Shown: positions 5,861 through 28,416, counted from the stretch's first letter. The stretch: DNA of 64,000 nucleotides from an uncultured Alphaproteobacteria bacterium (GCA_902537215.1 CACBAM010000002.1:124001-188000), one strand, 5' to 3'. Notes: generated by a model not told the origin, from the sequence alone. Made by a program: numbers and translations.

Positions 5861-6805
5861 ATGAAGAAATTTGCATCACAAAATGATTTAGATGAGAAAA
5901 ACATTCTATTTGAAGAAATCGGTAAAAAACTTTTTGCATTCACCGCGGAGGGAGATCCAAATTCCGGAATAATAATAGGTGATGAAAGCGTTATGGTCAT
6001 TGACGCTCAAGCAACACCAACTTTAGCCAGGAAAGTAATTGAGAAGGTTAGGTCAGTAACCGATAAACCAATTTCTCACTTAGTTTTGTCGCACTATCAT
6101 GCTGTGAGGGTATTAGGTGCATCTGAATATAAGGCAAACAATATAATTATGGGTAGTAAAGCAAGATCTATGGTGGTGGAGAGAGGACAAGAAGATTGGG
6201 ATAGTGAATTTGACAGATTTCCTAGATTATTTAAAGGACATCAAGAAATCCCCGGGCTCACTTGGCCTACTACAACATTTGAAAACAAAATGTCAGTCTT
6301 TTTAGGCAAACGAAGGGTCGATTTATTTTTTCTAGGTAGAGCGCATACTGCTGGAGATATTGTTATTCATGTGCCAGACTCAAATGTTTTATTTACTGGT
6401 GATATTGTTGAATATAAGTCGGCTTGTTATTGTGGGGATGCTCATTTACAGGATTGGCCTCAGACATTAGAAAAAATTGCAAAGTTTCAGGCTGTTTCCT
6501 TAGTTCCAGGGAGGGGTGATGCTCTAAAAGATCCAAGACAAATCGATGATGCAATTGAACTGACAGAGGACTTTGTTACGTCTACATTTAAATCAGTCTC
6601 AAAAATAGCTCATGCAGGTGGCGATTTAAAAGAAGCTATGTCATCTTGCAGAGATGAATGTGATAAAAAGTTTTCTGATTATGCTATATATGAGCATTGT
6701 TTGCCTTTTAATGTCTCAAGGGCTTTTGATGAAGCAAAAGGTATTGATAATCCGAGGATTTGGACAGCTCAGCGAGACAGAGAAATGTGGAATTTATTAC
6801 AGTGA
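5861..6805 (+). CDS. Metallo-beta-lactamase-fold hydrolase of the homogentisate operon
   Basis: A 314-residue MBL-fold protein. The metal motif reads SHYHAVRVLGAS: the first two histidines of HxHxDH are kept, but the Asp and third His are replaced by Val and Arg. A later GRAHTAGDIVIHV supplies another His/Asp and GDIVEYKSACYCGDAH follows. The family would normally be a dinuclear zinc hydrolase; this one may hold a single metal. I recall this same variant beside hmgA/fahA and the FAD monooxygenase in other proteobacteria, which suggests a step in aromatic acid catabolism. The reaction is unknown. It lies 10 bases after fahA and overlaps the next gene by 4 bases. Confidence 0.8.
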   Translation: MKKFASQNDLDEKNILFEEIGKKLFAFTAEGDPNSGIIIGDESVMVIDAQATPTLARKVIEKVRSVTDKPISHLVLSHYHAVRVLGASEYKANNIIMGSKARSMVVERGQEDWDSEFDRFPRLFKGHQEIPGLTWPTTTFENKMSVFLGKRRVDLFFLGRAHTAGDIVIHVPDSNVLFTGDIVEYKSACYCGDAHLQDWPQTLEKIAKFQAVSLVPGRGDALKDPRQIDDAIELTEDFVTSTFKSVSKIAHAGGDLKEAMSSCRDECDKKFSDYAIYEHCLPFNVSRAFDEAKGIDNPRIWTAQRDREMWNLLQ

Positions 6806-8415
6806 AGCGCGCAGCGAACTTTTCAAAAAACTACAACTATAAGGAATTTCCCTTCAAAACACCGCCAGAGATTTTGGAGGGAATTCAGAAAACTTATCCC
6901 GTAGTTATAGTAGGTGCAGGGCCTATTGGTTTATCCTTAGCAATTGATTTAGCGCAAAGGGGTATCAAAAGCGTCCTTCTAGATGATAACAATATTGTTT
7001 CAACAGGTTCAAGAGCAATCTGTTGGGCCAAGAGAACTTTAGAGATTTTCGATCGATTAGGGGTTGCCTCTAAAATGATGGCAAAGGGCATAACCTGGGA
7101 AACGGGTAGACTATTCAATGGCGATGAAGAAGTTTTCTCATTCAATTTGCTTCCTGACAAAGGCCAAAAATTTCCAGCATTTATAAATTTACAGCAGTAT
7201 TATGTAGAAGAATATTTGATTGAAAGATGCTTTCAGCTGAAAGACTATATTGATATTAGGTTTAATAGCGAAGTTATTGATCATGAACAAAATAAGGAAA
7301 CAGTCAATGTCACTGTCAGATGTCCTGAAGGCGATTATGGGTTGAAATCACTTTACATGATAGCTTGCGATGGTGCAGAGTCGCCAACTAGAAAAAGAAT
7401 GAATCTTTCTTTTGATGGTGAGGTTTTTGATGAGCATTTCTTGATTGTAGATATTTTTATGGAAACCCAGCCATTTGAGAGTGATCGGCCTGAGCGTTGG
7501 TTTTGGTTTACACCTACATTTCATGAAGGCCAATCTGCTTTATTACATAAACAAGCAGAAAATATTTACCGAATAGACTTACAACTTGAAGAACATATCG
7601 ATAAAAAAAAGGAGCTTGATCCTGAAAGGGTAAAGAAAAGAATAAAAAAAGTTGTAAAGTCCGACAATTTTGAAATTGACTGGATGAGTATTTACAAATT
7701 CAAGTGTGCTTCTTTAGATAAAATGGTGTTTGATAGAATTATTTTTGCTGGAGATAGTGCACATGTAGTAAGCCCATTTGGAGCAAGGGGTGGTAATGGT
7801 GGTATGCATGATGTGGATAATCTAGGGTGGAAACTTGCTTCGATCTTAAAAGATGATACATCATGTAAGATTTTAAATACTTACAATGATGAGCGAATTG
7901 AGGCTGCAAAGGAGAATATATTAAATTCCTCTAGAGCGACAAACTTTATGACTCCAAAAAACAAGATGGCTAAAGCTTTTCGTGATCAGGTTCTTAAGTC
8001 GGCAACTAGTAATCAATTTTCTAGAAACTTGATAAATTCAGGTAGGCTCTCTGTTCCATTTAAGCTTCGTGGTTTAAAGCTTGATAATGAGTATAGAAAT
8101 GATCCTCTGCTTGGATCGATCTATGTGGATTTTCCAATTCTTGATAAGAAAGGAAACCGTTTATTTCTGACAGATGTTATGGCTCTTAATTATAATTTAC
8201 TTTCGTTCTCTAAAACAAAAATTAGATTTTCTTGTGGTTTAAACTCAATAAGAATTGGTACAGAAAATAATGAAAATGTAGATTTTCTAGATTTTGAAGG
8301 TAAGGGGTTAGAAAGATATAGCGGGGGTCTAAATTACCTTATCAGACCAGATGGGTATATAGTAGGAATATTTAAAGAGATAAGTTCCAAAACATTAGAA
8401 AAATGTATGCTGTAG
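6802..8415 (+). CDS. FAD-dependent aromatic hydroxylase (class A flavoprotein monooxygenase)
   Basis: The GTG at 6802 overlaps the previous stop (GTGA) and gives 537 residues beginning MKRAANFSKNYNYKEFPF; an upstream TTG at 6760 is less likely. The dinucleotide fold VVIVGAGPIGLSLAIDLAQRG lies near residue 35. The second FAD motif IIFAGDSAHVVSPFGARGGNGGMHD is near 313-336, followed by NLGWKLA. The family hydroxylates phenolic rings using NAD(P)H and oxygen, as 3-(3-hydroxyphenyl)propionate hydroxylase does. Position in the operon suggests it feeds an aromatic acid into homogentisate, for example from a hydroxyphenylacetate; the substrate is inferred. Confidence 0.85.
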   Translation: MKRAANFSKNYNYKEFPFKTPPEILEGIQKTYPVVIVGAGPIGLSLAIDLAQRGIKSVLLDDNNIVSTGSRAICWAKRTLEIFDRLGVASKMMAKGITWETGRLFNGDEEVFSFNLLPDKGQKFPAFINLQQYYVEEYLIERCFQLKDYIDIRFNSEVIDHEQNKETVNVTVRCPEGDYGLKSLYMIACDGAESPTRKRMNLSFDGEVFDEHFLIVDIFMETQPFESDRPERWFWFTPTFHEGQSALLHKQAENIYRIDLQLEEHIDKKKELDPERVKKRIKKVVKSDNFEIDWMSIYKFKCASLDKMVFDRIIFAGDSAHVVSPFGARGGNGGMHDVDNLGWKLASILKDDTSCKILNTYNDERIEAAKENILNSSRATNFMTPKNKMAKAFRDQVLKSATSNQFSRNLINSGRLSVPFKLRGLKLDNEYRNDPLLGSIYVDFPILDKKGNRLFLTDVMALNYNLLSFSKTKIRFSCGLNSIRIGTENNENVDFLDFEGKGLERYSGGLNYLIRPDGYIVGIFKEISSKTLEKCML

Positions 8416-9598: not shown

Positions 9599-10041
9599 AT
9601 AATAAAGCTTTCAGATATTTAATAGGCTCGCTAGCGTTTCCATATATAGTTCTTCTGCTCCCTGAATAGTTTATATTTTAAGCCTTTATCGTAGTACTCT
9701 TTTTCGTAAGTTTCGATCAAAAAGAGCTACAGAAGAGAAATATTTTTGACTGTCCAACATTCACAGTATTGTTATTGGCCTTAAAATCTTTATAAAAAAT
9801 TGCAGAATAAAGATTTCAAACTAATATGGGTTTTAGCCAAAAACTATTATCTTTCATATGTTTTTTTGTTCTTATCCTATTTACAATATTTAGCAACTTT
9901 TTATAATCAGCGCACTCCAGGACTAAACTCGTTTCAAACCGATTAAGCAATATATGAAACGCTAAAAAATAATATTCTTTAAGAGTTAAGATCAGCAGAA
10001 TCGATTGAATTTCTTATTATCACATAGCTTTATTTGACACT
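9599..10041. other. 443-base gap without a supported gene
   Basis: AT-rich sequence between the 3' end of the phosphonate operon and the cupin group. The only frame of note is 9826-9906 on the plus strand, 26 mostly hydrophobic residues with no ribosome site. The 7-base arms CGTTTCA and TGAAACG around 9928-9962 are separated by 18 bases. The promoter for the cupin group should be here. Nothing else seen. Confidence 0.5.
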
Positions 10042-10428
10042 TCAATTTGAAAGAATGATGTTTGCAGTTTTATAACGCAACTCGGAGCTTGAGATATCTG
10101 GTGTTCGAGGAAATATTATCACCTTACAAGCAGAGATATGATTGGAGTTATCATCGCCATGCACAAGTATATCAATCTTGTTTTCAATAATATATTTGTC
10201 TTCTATAAGCCAATTAGAAGGGATCACTTCAGAGACATATCTAATTGCTAGAAGAATTTCTCTACGATTTTCAAAAGACAGCTCAGGTGTATACCCTTTT
10301 TTCTTAAGTATTTCTTCATCTTTTGTTAGTGCAACGATAACTTTACCTAAATCGGCAGCTTTTTTTAAAAGACGTATGTGGCCATGATGAAGGAGTGTAC
10401 ATGACATATCAACCAATACTCTTTTCAA
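10042..10428 (-). CDS. Stand-alone cytidylyltransferase, probable 2-aminoethylphosphonate activating enzyme
   Basis: Best start is the TTG at 10428, with GGAG 8 bases upstream; it gives 128 residues beginning MKRVLVDMSCTLLHHGHIRLL. The GTG at 10455 lacks a ribosome site. All family motifs are intact: HHGH (the HxGH site), the VHGDD segment, and RTPDISSSEL (the RTxxIS-type motif). TagD and PntC relatives transfer CMP from CTP to a phospho- or phosphonoalcohol. As the last gene of a 2-AEP operon it likely makes CMP-2-AEP for transfer to a glycan. The adenylyl/cytidylyl choice cannot be read with certainty. Confidence 0.82.
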   Translation of the reverse strand: MKRVLVDMSCTLLHHGHIRLLKKAADLGKVIVALTKDEEILKKKGYTPELSFENRREILLAIRYVSEVIPSNWLIEDKYIIENKIDILVHGDDNSNHISACKVIIFPRTPDISSSELRYKTANIILSN

Positions 10429-10467
10429 ATTATTTTCTCCTACTATTTTTTGCACGATAAAGCGAAT

Positions 10468-11463
10468 TTAACTAATTGATAGACACTCATTTATTAATCC
10501 CTTTGCATTTGGACCGAGATGTATCTCGCCCAGGTGACACACAACGCTTTCATTTGGGGCAAGTGTGCGAGGCGAGTACAAGATCGCTTTAGGATCACTA
10601 GCTGCGATTGTTCCACGGACTCGAGTGCATAATAATGGTTGTTTCTCTATCGGGAAGAATAGATATTTGCCAAACTTACTTGTGAAATGCTTCTTGCAAG
10701 CTTCTACAGCATACTTAAAGTTATGATGATCTTTTATAATTTTATCTAGTGAGCAGATTGCATGATAAGGTCCTGTCATTTTTTTTTCAAGATGACTTTC
10801 AATAGATAAATTGAATGAAGGAATATTGAAGTTTGGCATATCATTAAAAGCCACAAAAGCAGCCCCGGTCAATCCAAAAAGGCCTTTGCAAGAACTATAA
10901 CTGATTGTGTCAGCCAATTCATGATGAGCTTCTAATCCAATTGAAGCTGTGGCGTCAAGCATCAATTTAGCGCCTAAGGAATTTGCAAATTTACGCATCT
11001 TCTCTATGTCAAGCTTAAGGGCAATGCTTGTCTCTGTATAACAACCAATGACCCAATCAAATCGCCCATTAATGCTTTCGAAACTTTGCCAATCGATCGA
11101 GCTCACTTCAGTAATTTGACCATATGCCTTGGAAGCAACTTTGGCCATCATTTCAGCACGTTGAGCATAGTAACCTGAGTCTATAATGAGTACCTTGCCA
11201 TATGCAAAGTTGCTAATCATAACTTCAAGACCAGTGCTACCACTTCCTTGTAATCGAGCTATATATTTATGGCCACTCAATTCTTTCAGAGTTGATAAAA
11301 CCCGATTTTCAATTTTACTATAATTTTCATCGCCTCGACCAAAACAAGGTTCTAGACCCAAGATATTTTCCTGTGCTAGCGATGCTGGGCCCGCAGTGAA
11401 AAGTTTTTTTTCGCTGTTTTTATTTTTTATTAAAATATTTAAACTTTCTTTGTTGTCATACAT
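10468..11463 (-). CDS. aepZ: 2-aminoethylphosphonate-forming aminotransferase (class V, PLP)
   Basis: A class V aminotransferase of about 331 residues from the ATG at 11463; a start at 11475 would overlap aepY more deeply. Motifs include LFTAGPASLA at the N-terminus, GSGSTGLEVM, the aspartate region AKLMLDATASIGLEAHH and the PLP lysine in SSCKGLFGLTGAAFVAF. In this position it should transaminate phosphonoacetaldehyde to 2-aminoethylphosphonate (2-AEP), as AepZ or PhnW (in reverse) does. It is short for the family (about 360 residues). Other class V substrates are possible; the assignment leans on the neighbours. Confidence 0.82.
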   Translation of the reverse strand: MYDNKESLNILIKNKNSEKKLFTAGPASLAQENILGLEPCFGRGDENYSKIENRVLSTLKELSGHKYIARLQGSGSTGLEVMISNFAYGKVLIIDSGYYAQRAEMMAKVASKAYGQITEVSSIDWQSFESINGRFDWVIGCYTETSIALKLDIEKMRKFANSLGAKLMLDATASIGLEAHHELADTISYSSCKGLFGLTGAAFVAFNDMPNFNIPSFNLSIESHLEKKMTGPYHAICSLDKIIKDHHNFKYAVEACKKHFTSKFGKYLFFPIEKQPLLCTRVRGTIAASDPKAILYSPRTLAPNESVVCHLGEIHLGPNAKGLINECLSIS

Positions 11464-12604
11464 TTTTGTTATCACACCTTAAAAATTTAATGAAGTCAGC
11501 AAGATTTTGTTTTGGAGGTTTGTCAGGACGTCCCAAGTCTTTTCTGTTTCCACGTTTGCATTGAATCTCAAGGAATATGCTTCCATATTGCCTCGACTGG
11601 AAGTGTTGTTCAATTTCATTTGAAGATATTGCTTTACAAACCTTTGTATATCCAAAACCATCCGCTATTCTTTGTAAATTTATTTGGAAAGCAGCAGTGG
11701 GTTGTCCTCCCACTGAGTCATGTGCTCCATTATTTAGTATAATATGCATCAAATTTGATTGGTATGCACATTCCGCCATCCCACCACTATGCATGAGTAA
11801 GGCACCGTCACCATCTAGGCAAATTACGCGTCTGTGGCTGAGTGTGGCAGCTATACGACATGCAATCTGTGAAGCGTGTCCCATACCTCCAACTGTCAAA
11901 AAATCACTATCATGAGGCAAATTTTTTAGTTTTCTGATCTCATAAAGCTCACGCCCAATCATTCCAGTCGACGCAACAAAAATATCGAGTGGGTGCGAAA
12001 GATTTATGATCAACTCAATAGCTTCTTCTCGCCGAAGTATGGGTCTCTGCACCGATTTTGTAAATTTTATTAAGGTTTCTTCAAATGTATTTTTTCGAAA
12101 CACTAAGGCAACAGGTCGTCTTTTTGTTTTCGCCAGTGTAACGAGATTGTGGATTTTTTCTTTCCAATCTTTTGATTTTTCGTGAATGATATCATAGGGG
12201 ACGTCTAGCGTCTTGAGAGTGCTCAAGGTAACTTGACCTTGTTTTACATGTTGTGGTTCATCATTAATTTGGTTGCCCTCATCATCAATTTCACCTCTCC
12301 AGCCAATTAGTAAAAGCATTGGTATACCATAAACTTCGGGATCAGCAAGTGAGATCAGAGGGTTATAAGCATTTCCCAAGCCTGAATTTTGCATATAAAC
12401 AGCGGCCAACTGCTCAGTTGCTGCAAAGTGTCCTATAGCATTAGCGACTGCACTCCCTTCATTGCTAGAAATTATGTGTTCATTTTCAGAGCAAGACTTG
12501 CTTATTTGATAATTCAGGCCCTTCATTAATGAATCGGGGATACCCACAAAAAAGTTAATCCCGTTAGACTTTAATTCGTCTAGAAAATTACTTGGTGAAA
12601 TCAT
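11456..12604 (-). CDS. aepY: Phosphonopyruvate decarboxylase
   Basis: A 382-residue thiamine-diphosphate enzyme that decarboxylates phosphonopyruvate to phosphonoacetaldehyde, making the unfavourable PEP mutase reaction run forward. The N-terminal part has GIPDSLMKGL and the SSNEGSAVANAIGH glutamate region. The C-terminal ThDP motif is GDGALLMHSGGMAECAYQ...NN, and GGQPT follows. Length matches the family. Its ATG overlaps the stop of aepX by 4 bases and its end overlaps the transaminase start region, so the three genes are translationally coupled. Confidence 0.94.
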   Translation of the reverse strand: MISPSNFLDELKSNGINFFVGIPDSLMKGLNYQISKSCSENEHIISSNEGSAVANAIGHFAATEQLAAVYMQNSGLGNAYNPLISLADPEVYGIPMLLLIGWRGEIDDEGNQINDEPQHVKQGQVTLSTLKTLDVPYDIIHEKSKDWKEKIHNLVTLAKTKRRPVALVFRKNTFEETLIKFTKSVQRPILRREEAIELIINLSHPLDIFVASTGMIGRELYEIRKLKNLPHDSDFLTVGGMGHASQIACRIAATLSHRRVICLDGDGALLMHSGGMAECAYQSNLMHIILNNGAHDSVGGQPTAAFQINLQRIADGFGYTKVCKAISSNEIEQHFQSRQYGSIFLEIQCKRGNRKDLGRPDKPPKQNLADFIKFLRCDNKNV

Positions 12605-13911
12605 CTTCCCGTGCTCGGTATTAATTTCAAGATTTCATTTATGCTGATGAGCTTATCCTCAATTTCCAGTGATCGATCATTCTTAAGTATTCCGCTAGCC
12701 GTATCATACATAGCTTTATAAGAGGCACGCATTAGATGATTAGCGTAGATAACAACATCAAAACCTGAGCTACCCAATTCTTCAGCTGTAATTTCGTTAT
12801 AGCTACTGGGAACACAAAACAACGGAGTATCAGGGAATTTGCTTTTGTGGAACTTTGCAAACTCTAACACTTCCCTAGGTGATTTTTGACGACTATGAAT
12901 CATTATACCATCTGCGCCAGCATTAATATAAGCACGACCACGACTGCATGCATCTGCCATACCTTTTTCAAGTATTAAGCTTTCAATACGAGCAATAATC
13001 ATAAAGTCTTTGCTTACTTGCGCAGCTTTGCCAATTTTAATTTTTTCGGCAAATTCATTCATTTCTGCTTGTGTTTGAACTACATCATTTCCAAATAAAG
13101 AGTTGCGCTTCAGTCCTGTTTTATCTTCAATGATTACTGCAGAGACTCCCAATCGGTCTAAGCGATTAACCGAGTGGACAAAGTGCTCAGGGATTCCTCC
13201 AGTATCTAAATCAATTATAAGTGGCTTGGTAGTGACATCAAAAATGTCAGAGATATTTTTTGTACGGTGGGATAAATCCAACACTTCAATGTCCGGTTTA
13301 CCCATTTCGGTAGAGTCTGTCAGTGAACTAGACCAAAACCCATCAAACCTACGACTGTTGTACTCGCCTTCAAAAAACATATTTTCTGAAATTAGCGCAG
13401 AAATCGGGCTATGTGCCTCCATAATTCTGACAATTTTTTTGCTATTAATTAAACGACGTAAGAGCTGTTGGCGCTGTGATGGAGAAGCACGATTGGAGTA
13501 TAGATCACGACCAAGTTGTATCGCTGATATGTCAGTTGTATAAGGAATTTCGATTAGCTTACCACCATATGAATTAAGTACCTTAATGCAGTTTTCACGG
13601 ATACGAGATTGAGAACCTTCTTGCCAATCATCACCATGCACGATGAAGTCTGGTTTTAGCAATTTTATAGTTATGGAGTCATCCCAGTTTTCTTGAGGAA
13701 CAACTTTTGATACTCCCTTAATGTTCTGTAAAACTTTTTTTCTATGCTGAAAGCTCAATATAGGTAGATTTTTAAATTCCGTAATAGCACTGTCTGTCAG
13801 ACATCCAACAGTAACAACTCCGTATTTTGAAGCTTCTTCAATAATGTTGATTATGCCATGATGGATAAAGTCGCCTGAAATGCTTACATATACGGACTTA
13901 TTAGCAACCAT
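12601..13911 (-). CDS. aepX: Phosphoenolpyruvate mutase with fused, degenerate nucleotidyltransferase domain
   Basis: A 436-residue two-domain protein. Residues about 1-130 are a cytidylyltransferase-like domain, and about 150-436 a PEP mutase of the isocitrate lyase superfamily with the defining EDKTGLKRNS motif. The mutase converts PEP to phosphonopyruvate, the committed step of C-P bond synthesis. In the N-terminal domain the HxGH motif reads HHGI and the RTxxISTT-type motif reads YTTDISAIQL, so CMP transfer is probably lost. AAGGA lies 7 bases before the ATG at 13911; a GTG one codon upstream is also possible. First gene of the phosphonate operon. Confidence 0.95.
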   Translation of the reverse strand: MVANKSVYVSISGDFIHHGIINIIEEASKYGVVTVGCLTDSAITEFKNLPILSFQHRKKVLQNIKGVSKVVPQENWDDSITIKLLKPDFIVHGDDWQEGSQSRIRENCIKVLNSYGGKLIEIPYTTDISAIQLGRDLYSNRASPSQRQQLLRRLINSKKIVRIMEAHSPISALISENMFFEGEYNSRRFDGFWSSSLTDSTEMGKPDIEVLDLSHRTKNISDIFDVTTKPLIIDLDTGGIPEHFVHSVNRLDRLGVSAVIIEDKTGLKRNSLFGNDVVQTQAEMNEFAEKIKIGKAAQVSKDFMIIARIESLILEKGMADACSRGRAYINAGADGIMIHSRQKSPREVLEFAKFHKSKFPDTPLFCVPSSYNEITAEELGSSGFDVVIYANHLMRASYKAMYDTASGILKNDRSLEIEDKLISINEILKLIPSTGR

Positions 13912-14225
13912 CACGTATTCCTTTTTTTCTTATGTTTGCAAAAAAAATAAGATTTTTTCCAAAAACTCTAACCGACCTAATTATTTCTGCTGATACAGAA
14001 TAACATGAATCAGTAGAAACTATTTTACAACTGCCATCCAGCATAAGATTTACACCATAAAAGTTATTTACGATCAAGCCCTAATTTATTACCAACAATA
14101 ACTAAAAAATGAAATTGAAAATGGGATAGGAATATGTAACTTGATGTTTATTATCTCTCAGGAATTTCAACAAATAAAGGCAGGTAAAATACTCTTTGAA
14201 TTCTGAATTCAATATTTAAATCCCT
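13912..14225. other. 314-base gap before the phosphonate operon
   Basis: It separates the glycosyltransferase at 14226 from aepX on the same strand and probably holds the aepX promoter. TCTTAT and ATAAGA at about 13929-13953 form a short inverted repeat near aepX, and a 17-base palindrome lies at 14196-14212. No gene seen. Confidence 0.5.
14196..14212. repeat. 17-base perfect palindrome downstream of the glycosyltransferase gene
   Basis: TTGAATTC at 14196-14203 and GAATTCAA at 14205-14212 are separated by one base. It starts 14 bases after the end of the GT4 gene (minus strand). It could be a weak end-of-operon hairpin or a protein site; there is no clear T-run after it. Confidence 0.35.
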
Positions 14226-27246: not shown

Positions 27247-28416
27247 TTATCGGCCCATAACGCAGTACTTTATGAAATCCATGAATTTATAAAAATTTCT
27301 TTTTACAGATGAAATTTTTATTTGCCTATGGTCATAAATGTTATTTTTTTTAATAAAATCTTTTTTGACGGTTTTTTTATAGATATGACGCAATCTCTGC
27401 ACTTCCTGCACAAACCTAAATTCCGCATTGTCTAAAAGAATTTCATCAAAGCTTTTACAAATTATTGAATCAAATTTTCTTGCTTGAGGTTTTCTGCAAA
27501 ACCCAAAATCTGCATCTCTTATATAGTATGCAGTTTTAGTTTTTAGAGCCCAAAGCTCAATAGGATCATAAATGCCAACATTAAAAGATTTATGATCCTC
27601 GATTACTATATATTCTCTCTTTGGCAAAGTATAGTCGCGGTTACTTTTTCTCGTATCACTACATATATCATTTAGTAATTTTTTGAAGTCAACTAAGGAG
27701 CACAGCATGTTGTTATGTTTAAGCTTATTTTTGTCTTTCTGTTTATGTAAAAATAGCACATTCGTACGATCTTCATTCAGAATTGTATATATTGGATTTG
27801 TTCGTAATTCATAACTTAACTTAAACCCATGATCAGAAAATAAAAAAACATGATCAAATTCTTGGATATCGATCTCATCAAGCATAGTCTGCATGGCAAA
27901 AGAGATATTTTTATATCCCTGTCTTTCACCATAAGTTGATGCACCAAGTGCGTCAATTGTCCAATGGAACTGTGGGAAACAAGCGAAAACTAAATGTTTT
28001 TCTTTTAGTACCAATTTATTAAAGAATTCACGTACTGAATATTTTGTATTGTGATTATAATTATCCATAACAAATTGTGGGAAAATACCATTCATTCTCT
28101 CTACTGGGTCTGATAAAAAATCCATTGTATAGTCTTTGTCTGCCAAATCTTTAAATATGTTGTTAACATTTTTTTTTAAAAAGTGTTGAGGCCACTTGGT
28201 GTGTCTATCGCAGCCATTTAGCTGTGGTTCGACACCGGTATACAATGTCGCAAGACTTCTTGGGGTATCGGGAGCAACTGCAAAGCAATTTGTATAGAAA
28301 TCTCCACCAATCTTTTGAATAATCTGATCAAGTTCATTTGGCTGCGCATTTCCATCCGAAAAAGTGGAAAGCCGATTTCTTCTGATCATATCTGCGAACA
28401 AAATTAAAAGTTTCAT
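27247..28416 (-). CDS. Cytosolic sulfatase-fold (alkaline phosphatase superfamily) protein, possible transferase
   Basis: A 389-residue protein with the sulfatase/alkaline-phosphatase outline: LILFADMIRRNRL (first metal Asp9), the nucleophile region APDTPRSLATLYTG, in which Thr51 stands where sulfatases have Cys/Ser, and FLFSDHGF (the DHG metal motif). There is no signal peptide or membrane segment, unlike the EptA or LtaS transferases of this superfamily. Threonine nucleophiles occur in phosphoethanolamine and glycerolphosphate transferases. In a locus next to 2-AEP synthesis it might move a phospho- or phosphono-group to the glycan. Function is inferred; it overlaps wzx by 4 bases. Confidence 0.72.
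   Translation of the reverse strand: MKLLILFADMIRRNRLSTFSDGNAQPNELDQIIQKIGGDFYTNCFAVAPDTPRSLATLYTGVEPQLNGCDRHTKWPQHFLKKNVNNIFKDLADKDYTMDFLSDPVERMNGIFPQFVMDNYNHNTKYSVREFFNKLVLKEKHLVFACFPQFHWTIDALGASTYGERQGYKNISFAMQTMLDEIDIQEFDHVFLFSDHGFKLSYELRTNPIYTILNEDRTNVLFLHKQKDKNKLKHNNMLCSLVDFKKLLNDICSDTRKSNRDYTLPKREYIVIEDHKSFNVGIYDPIELWALKTKTAYYIRDADFGFCRKPQARKFDSIICKSFDEILLDNAEFRFVQEVQRLRHIYKKTVKKDFIKKNNIYDHRQIKISSVKRNFYKFMDFIKYCVMGR

Follow-up and report, generated by a model that had tools for sequence, protein, structure and literature searches.

In Fom1 of Streptomyces wedmorensis, a cytidylyltransferase (CyTase) domain precedes a phosphoenolpyruvate (PEP) mutase in the same protein (PDB 5x3d) and yields CMP-2-hydroxyethylphosphonate (CMP-HEP; Cho et al. 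2017, cited in PMC6697681). A separate enzyme, PntC, was described from Atopobium rimae and Treponema denticola by Rice et al. 2019, who proved that it forms the CMP derivative of 2-aminoethylphosphonate (AEP); Tde-PntC is fused to an AEP transaminase (AEPT) (PMC6697681). The same authors counted PF01467 fusions in 23.6% of Ppm proteins and triple fusions in about 2.8%, and noted three clusters from oral anaerobes in which a fused nucleotidyltransferase (NTase) is accompanied by another one nearby (PMC6697681). Here we analysed 64,000 nucleotides of DNA from an uncultured Alphaproteobacteria bacterium (GCA_902537215.1 CACBAM010000002.1:124001-188000; hereafter the window), in which one operon encodes a PEP mutase (PepM) with a fused CyTase domain, in the same domain order as Fom1, and also a stand-alone CyTase. 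The catalytic motifs are altered in the fused domain and conserved in the stand-alone protein, and such a degenerate fused domain was found to go together with a second NTase in related loci.

The fused protein of 437 amino acids (12601-13914, minus strand) scored 389.9 bits against the equivalog TIGR02320 (cut-off 319.55), and Pfam and NCBIfam placed a PF01467 CyTase domain at about residues 7-134 and the PEP mutase at about residues 150-437. The mutase half is intact, with the signature EDKxxxxxNS (as defined in PMC6697681) reading EDKTGLKRNS at residues 263-272 (13099-13128, minus strand). The nearest solved relative of the N-terminal domain was the CyTase domain of Fom1 (E 1.8e-40), and the alignment with 5x3d showed that the catalytic positions differ. 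Fom1 has HPGH and ISST, whereas the window protein has HHGI at residues 18-21 (13852-13863, minus strand; context GDFIHHGIINI) and ISAI at residues 129-132 (13519-13530, minus strand; context YTTDISAIQL). The domain shares the N-terminal PF01467 fusion of active Fom1-type CyTases and has neither the HxGH nor the ISST-type motif. Besides H21 and S131 it lacks M12, A14, Y47, R49 and G142, which were drawn from the positions that are 99-100% conserved in 76 intact relatives. An error in base calling is an unlikely source of the motif changes; sequencing error and a pseudogene were rejected, since the reading frame has no interruption, the mutase half is preserved and the differences are spread over many codons.

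TagD cannot do without His14, His17 and Arg113 (PMC8262930), and a Thr-to-Ala change in the ISST-type motif lowers the activity of glycerol-3-phosphate cytidylyltransferase (GCT) (PMC6060094); the importance of both motifs is known for TagD and CCT (PMC8262930, PMC6060094). With isoleucine for the second HxGH histidine, alanine for a conserved Ser/Thr and further invariant residues gone, the fused CyTase domain is very probably inactive as a nucleotidyltransferase. Alternatively, the altered site could still catalyse a reaction by another mechanism or on another substrate, since the window domain keeps the first histidine, Asp15, Lys48, Arg58, HGDDW (residues 93-97; 13624-13638, minus strand), Thr126 and Ser130, and since three MAGs (metagenome-assembled genomes) with HPGI have no evident second NTase. 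Such continued catalysis is highly improbable given that the second histidine is essential in TagD (PMC8262930), that several invariant positions are gone together and that the evolutionary rate is relaxed.

The wider pattern was obtained from the best 80 fused PepMs in an alignment-based scan of 84,980 species genomes, together with 29 loci from viral contigs, the majority of which are fused. Among the 110 fused proteins, 76 keep both HxGH and xS[ST][ST] and 34 are degenerate. Five positions outside this splitting criterion (M12, A14, Y47, K48 and R49) were conserved to 99-100% in the intact group vs 29-74% among the degenerate domains; four of these residues are gone from the window domain. 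Proteins without the second HxGH histidine are that of the window and those of five spirochaete MAGs and one Bacteroidaceae MAG; a Segatella triple fusion lacks the first.

A second NTase was looked for in each locus, whose flanks reached at most about 10 kb where contigs allowed, and was defined as either a PntC-like PF12804 protein of at least 180 bits (or a partial and adjacent one) or a CyTase closest to the stand-alone protein of the window. It accompanied 28 of the 34 degenerate domains compared to 2 of the 76 intact domains (Fisher 4.6e-18), leaving 6 and 74 domains, respectively, without one. The sequence-only reading had contrasted HHGI and ISAI in the fused domain with HHGH and RTPDISSS in the separate protein and had proposed an alignment of the fused domain with known fusions and a check of whether the split co-occurs across genomes; translation of the open reading frames, the Fom1 alignment and these counts all bear it out. 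The association persisted when mutase domains were clustered at 80% identity (18/21 degenerate vs 1/43 intact, p 7e-12) or at 70% identity (9/11 vs 2/27). The weakest assignment was that of Shimia (L125), counted by hand from a PntC-like gene that a genome search placed some 12 kb downstream and that scored 139 on the in-house profile, below the 180-bit threshold. Loss of HxGH alone was rejected as the correlate: it was weaker (5/8 vs 25/102 with a second NTase, p 0.034) because three HPGI MAGs have no second enzyme.

The stand-alone CyTase (10042-10428, minus strand) starts with TTG at 10428, preceded by AGGAG, which agrees with the coordinates given earlier for this reading frame. It scored 47.5 bits against PF01467 (threshold 21 bits) and carries HHGH at residues 14-17 (10378-10389, minus strand; context TLLHHGHIRLL) and PRTPDISSS at residues 107-115 (10084-10110, minus strand; context PRTPDISSSEL), as expected for an HxGH nucleotidyltransferase. 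From gene context it is a candidate for a PntC-like function: like PntC it stands apart from the ppm-fused domain and its predicted role is to activate AEP beside ppm, ppd and aept, with fusions to AEPT in both cases. PntC, however, belongs to PF12804 (LicC/MobA-like, with GxG(T/S)R..PK), and the window enzyme belongs instead to the HxGH superfamily (PF01467), so this solution to AEP activation would be convergent. An HxGH-type enzyme that acts on a phosphonate is also known in PhpF, a stand-alone PF01467 cytidylyltransferase that by its description differs from the candidate in acting on phosphonoformate in phosphinothricin biosynthesis, not on AEP (PMC6697681).

Homologues with 46-61% identity to the stand-alone CyTase were found in five loci. 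In a Balneolaceae locus (L063) the gene order PepM-Ppd-AEPT-CyTase is the same as in the window; the others are from Rhodospirillaceae (L069), Pelagibacteraceae (L071), Campylobacteraceae (L105) and SAR86 (L129). In the last two the CyTase is fused N-terminally to an AEPT, and the two AEPTs are of different types. The clade is rare and was not found in 397 other sampled Pseudomonadota genomes. No PntC-like enzyme was found near the window operon, as the PF12804 matches of this genome lie elsewhere or are sugar-nucleotide enzymes. We infer AEP as the substrate from the gene order in L063, the AEPT fusions, the missing PntC-like neighbour and the absence of the clade from the other Pseudomonadota genomes sampled; the fusions count as a hint since the proven CMP-AEP enzyme Tde-PntC is likewise fused to AEPT (PMC6697681). 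The enzyme could instead activate another molecule, such as glycerol-3-phosphate or a sugar phosphate for the adjacent polysaccharide locus, in which case the work of the phosphonate pathway would not be divided between two proteins. Its best general match was the GCT family TIGR01518, and the nearest folds to its AlphaFold2 (AF2) model (pLDDT 86) were GCT (1coz) and the Fom1 CyTase (5x3d), with both motifs shared with GCT/TagD. It differs from GCT in that Asp11 is replaced by Thr and in lying in a phosphonate operon. The match to TIGR01518 reached 77 bits, below the equivalog cut-off of 165.4. Together with two types of AEPT fusion in two loci, the location beside PepM-Ppd-AEPT elsewhere and the failure to find the clade in the other sampled genomes, this makes a substrate outside the phosphonate pathway improbable.

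Profiles for phosphonoacetaldehyde reductase and for two types of AEPT were run over 114 loci. The intact loci without a second NTase (n=78) had a reductase in 74 cases, an AEPT in none and neither in 4. In contrast, the degenerate loci with a second NTase had an AEPT in 19, a reductase in 7 and neither in 2 cases, and those without a second NTase had an AEPT in 1 and neither in 5. Loci with an AEPT were degenerate in 20 of 21 cases, and the sole exception with an intact motif (L063, VSSS) belongs to the window's own clade. The window operon has a transaminase and no reductase, which sets it apart from the HEP system of Fom1. Since the Fom1 CyTase acts on HEP (PMC6697681), the fused domain can most simply be read as an enzyme for HEP, whose active site would be retained only for as long as the pathway produces HEP and lacks another enzyme to activate it. 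With intact domains in reductase pathways and degenerate domains mostly in transaminase pathways, decay is more likely to have followed from a new substrate.

These observations fit best with the fused domain being a former Fom1-like HEP cytidylyltransferase that probably decayed once AEP had become the product of the pathway and its activation had passed to a separate cytidylyltransferase. The four genes would form one operon for making and activating AEP, in which PEP mutase would give phosphonopyruvate, Ppd phosphonoacetaldehyde and the divergent transaminase AEP, and the stand-alone CyTase would supply CMP-AEP to the surrounding polysaccharide locus. The mutase-fused domain would descend from a CTP:HEP cytidylyltransferase and would have lost catalysis both because HEP was no longer made, an aminotransferase having replaced the reductase, and because another cytidylyltransferase activated AEP. 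Both the loss of activity and this order of events are what we infer from motifs, gene content and rates. The earlier proposal that a trans-acting enzyme took over activation was right in that a separate, intact-looking CyTase lies in the operon, but the reaction is probably not the same one, as HEP and AEP belong to different pathways.

Several results weigh against this explanation. In seven degenerate loci the reductase is still present, together with PntC; a switch of substrate alone is thus insufficient, and replacement by another enzyme also accompanies decay. Three spirochaete MAGs with HPGI (L091, L092 and L114) and L111 show no second NTase of either type genome-wide, perhaps due to incomplete MAGs. 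L063 combines an intact motif with a stand-alone CyTase, and the whole stand-alone clade has Thr where GCT has Asp11, so that its own activity is putative. The sampling consisted of the 80 best matches to the window. In the mutase-domain tree degeneration required about 7 changes, at least 5 of them forced, and with so few independent origins the raw Fisher values overstate the evidence. Independent pairs were 3.5:0 of 5 on average for the second NTase (p 0.125) and 2.9:0 on average for the pathway trait (p 0.25); the tests favour the co-occurrence rule without significance, as there were too few pairs. The window PepM groups with L063, L069, L071 and L125 with a support of 99, on a long branch, and the fourth motif in this clade reads VSSS, VSSA, ISSD and FDTG, respectively, compared to ISAI in the window. 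As a separate observation, L091, L092 and L114 have Ppd and no evident AEPT in the genome.

The sequence-only reading had left the choice between a relic and a retained module. In non-overlapping sister pairs with the motif columns left out, the ratio of CyTase to mutase distance was 1.76 for degenerate vs 1.05 for intact pairs (p 1.6e-5), and the higher ratio indicates that constraint on the fused domain has relaxed, in agreement with a relic. It appears relaxed rather than absent, as Y9, G32, G37, R58, V71, Q74, P88, H93, G94, W97, G118 and R148 are invariant in all 34 degenerate domains and the window domain is predicted to fold. In the AF2 model of the fused protein, for which the plasmid-record row was left out of the alignment, the pLDDT was about 90 across most of residues 20-120; a fold search with the whole model was uninformative for the N-terminal domain, as the best 50 matches were all of the mutase superfamily. 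With this conserved core, the domain may keep a residual binding or structural role. The degenerate domain might bind CTP, a CMP-phosphonate or a phosphonate and modulate the mutase, or might stabilise the oligomer or an assembly that includes the separate CyTase. The 12 invariant residues, the confidently predicted fold and the fact that the domain has not been deleted, although PEP mutases without a CyTase exist (L037), speak for such a module. Degenerate domains evolve relatively faster than intact ones, and the core may be needed just for folding, which makes a binding or regulatory module unlikely. A broader and rather doubtful extension is that fused CyTases repeatedly became pseudoenzymes kept as phosphonate- or nucleotide-sensing controllers of PEP mutase, and that a separate enzyme took on catalysis, either PntC (PF12804) or a member of a new PF01467 family of AEP cytidylyltransferases, the two being unrelated in fold.

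The claim that the split arrangement was undescribed holds in part. The arrangement itself is of a known kind, given the oral anaerobe clusters (PMC6697681), but no description of a pseudo-CyTase in PepM was found in the open-access literature searched, which covered neither subscription papers nor supplementary files, and the words 'inactive' and 'degenerate' are absent from the text of Rice et al. 2019 (PMC6697681). Within that literature, the decay rule, its link to the switch from reductase to transaminase and the PF01467-type candidate for AEP seem to be without precedent. For a common and ambiguous fusion, the rule would be that an intact fused CyTase predicts the HEP pathway with activation in cis, and a degenerate one predicts that a separate enzyme performs the activation, usually of AEP. 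It would correct the automatic annotation of many 'bifunctional' PEP mutases, explain the two nucleotidyltransferases in some clusters, and point to an uncharacterised PF01467 clade of marine bacteria as the candidate for AEP cytidylyltransferase, in a setting where phosphonates enter the cycles of phosphorus and methane (PMC8931226).

The fused PepM and the stand-alone CyTase are separated by two genes on the minus strand. Phosphonopyruvate decarboxylase (Ppd, 11456-12604) scored 404.4 bits against TIGR03297 (cut-off 312.5). The gene at 10468-11475 is called an AEPT candidate from weak homology and gene context: it reached E 4e-16 and 59.4 bits against TIGR03301, below the cut-off of 360.8, and E 1.8e-6 against the PhnW chain 7e7g, and its orthologue in L129 is the one fused to CyTase. 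It matched no Pfam family over the cut-off and has orthologues in several PepM-Ppd operons, which would make it a candidate for a divergent AEPT family. No GC anomaly was seen at the operon. A full-length fused match was absent from 20 sampled congeners, one sampled genome of the same family (G567) has an intact fused PepM, and HHGI was looked for and not found in these congeners or in the family sample. With no fused PepM in the sampled congeners and only one in the family, the operon was probably acquired as part of the variable polysaccharide locus. LicD was rejected as the AEP acceptor enzyme, as this genome has none.

Further observations concern other fused proteins and the neighbouring locus. 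A plasmid-borne triple fusion in Segatella copri (L060, 7293-9302) joins a MobA-like NTase, a degenerate CyTase and a PEP mutase, with the dead-looking CyTase domain between two apparently live domains. A Clostridiales locus (L137) has two PepMs with degenerate CyTase domains, at 6392-7690 (minus strand) and 9986-11290 (plus strand). Among the IMG/VR viral contigs (L143-L171), more than 20 have an intact fused CyTase-PEP mutase, in most cases followed by Ppd-like and reductase-like genes, and this gene content suggests virus-encoded synthesis and activation of HEP. In the polysaccharide locus of the window, 27247-28416 (minus strand) encodes a 389-residue protein with no Pfam match, which by eye resembles proteins of the alkaline-phosphatase/sulfatase fold.

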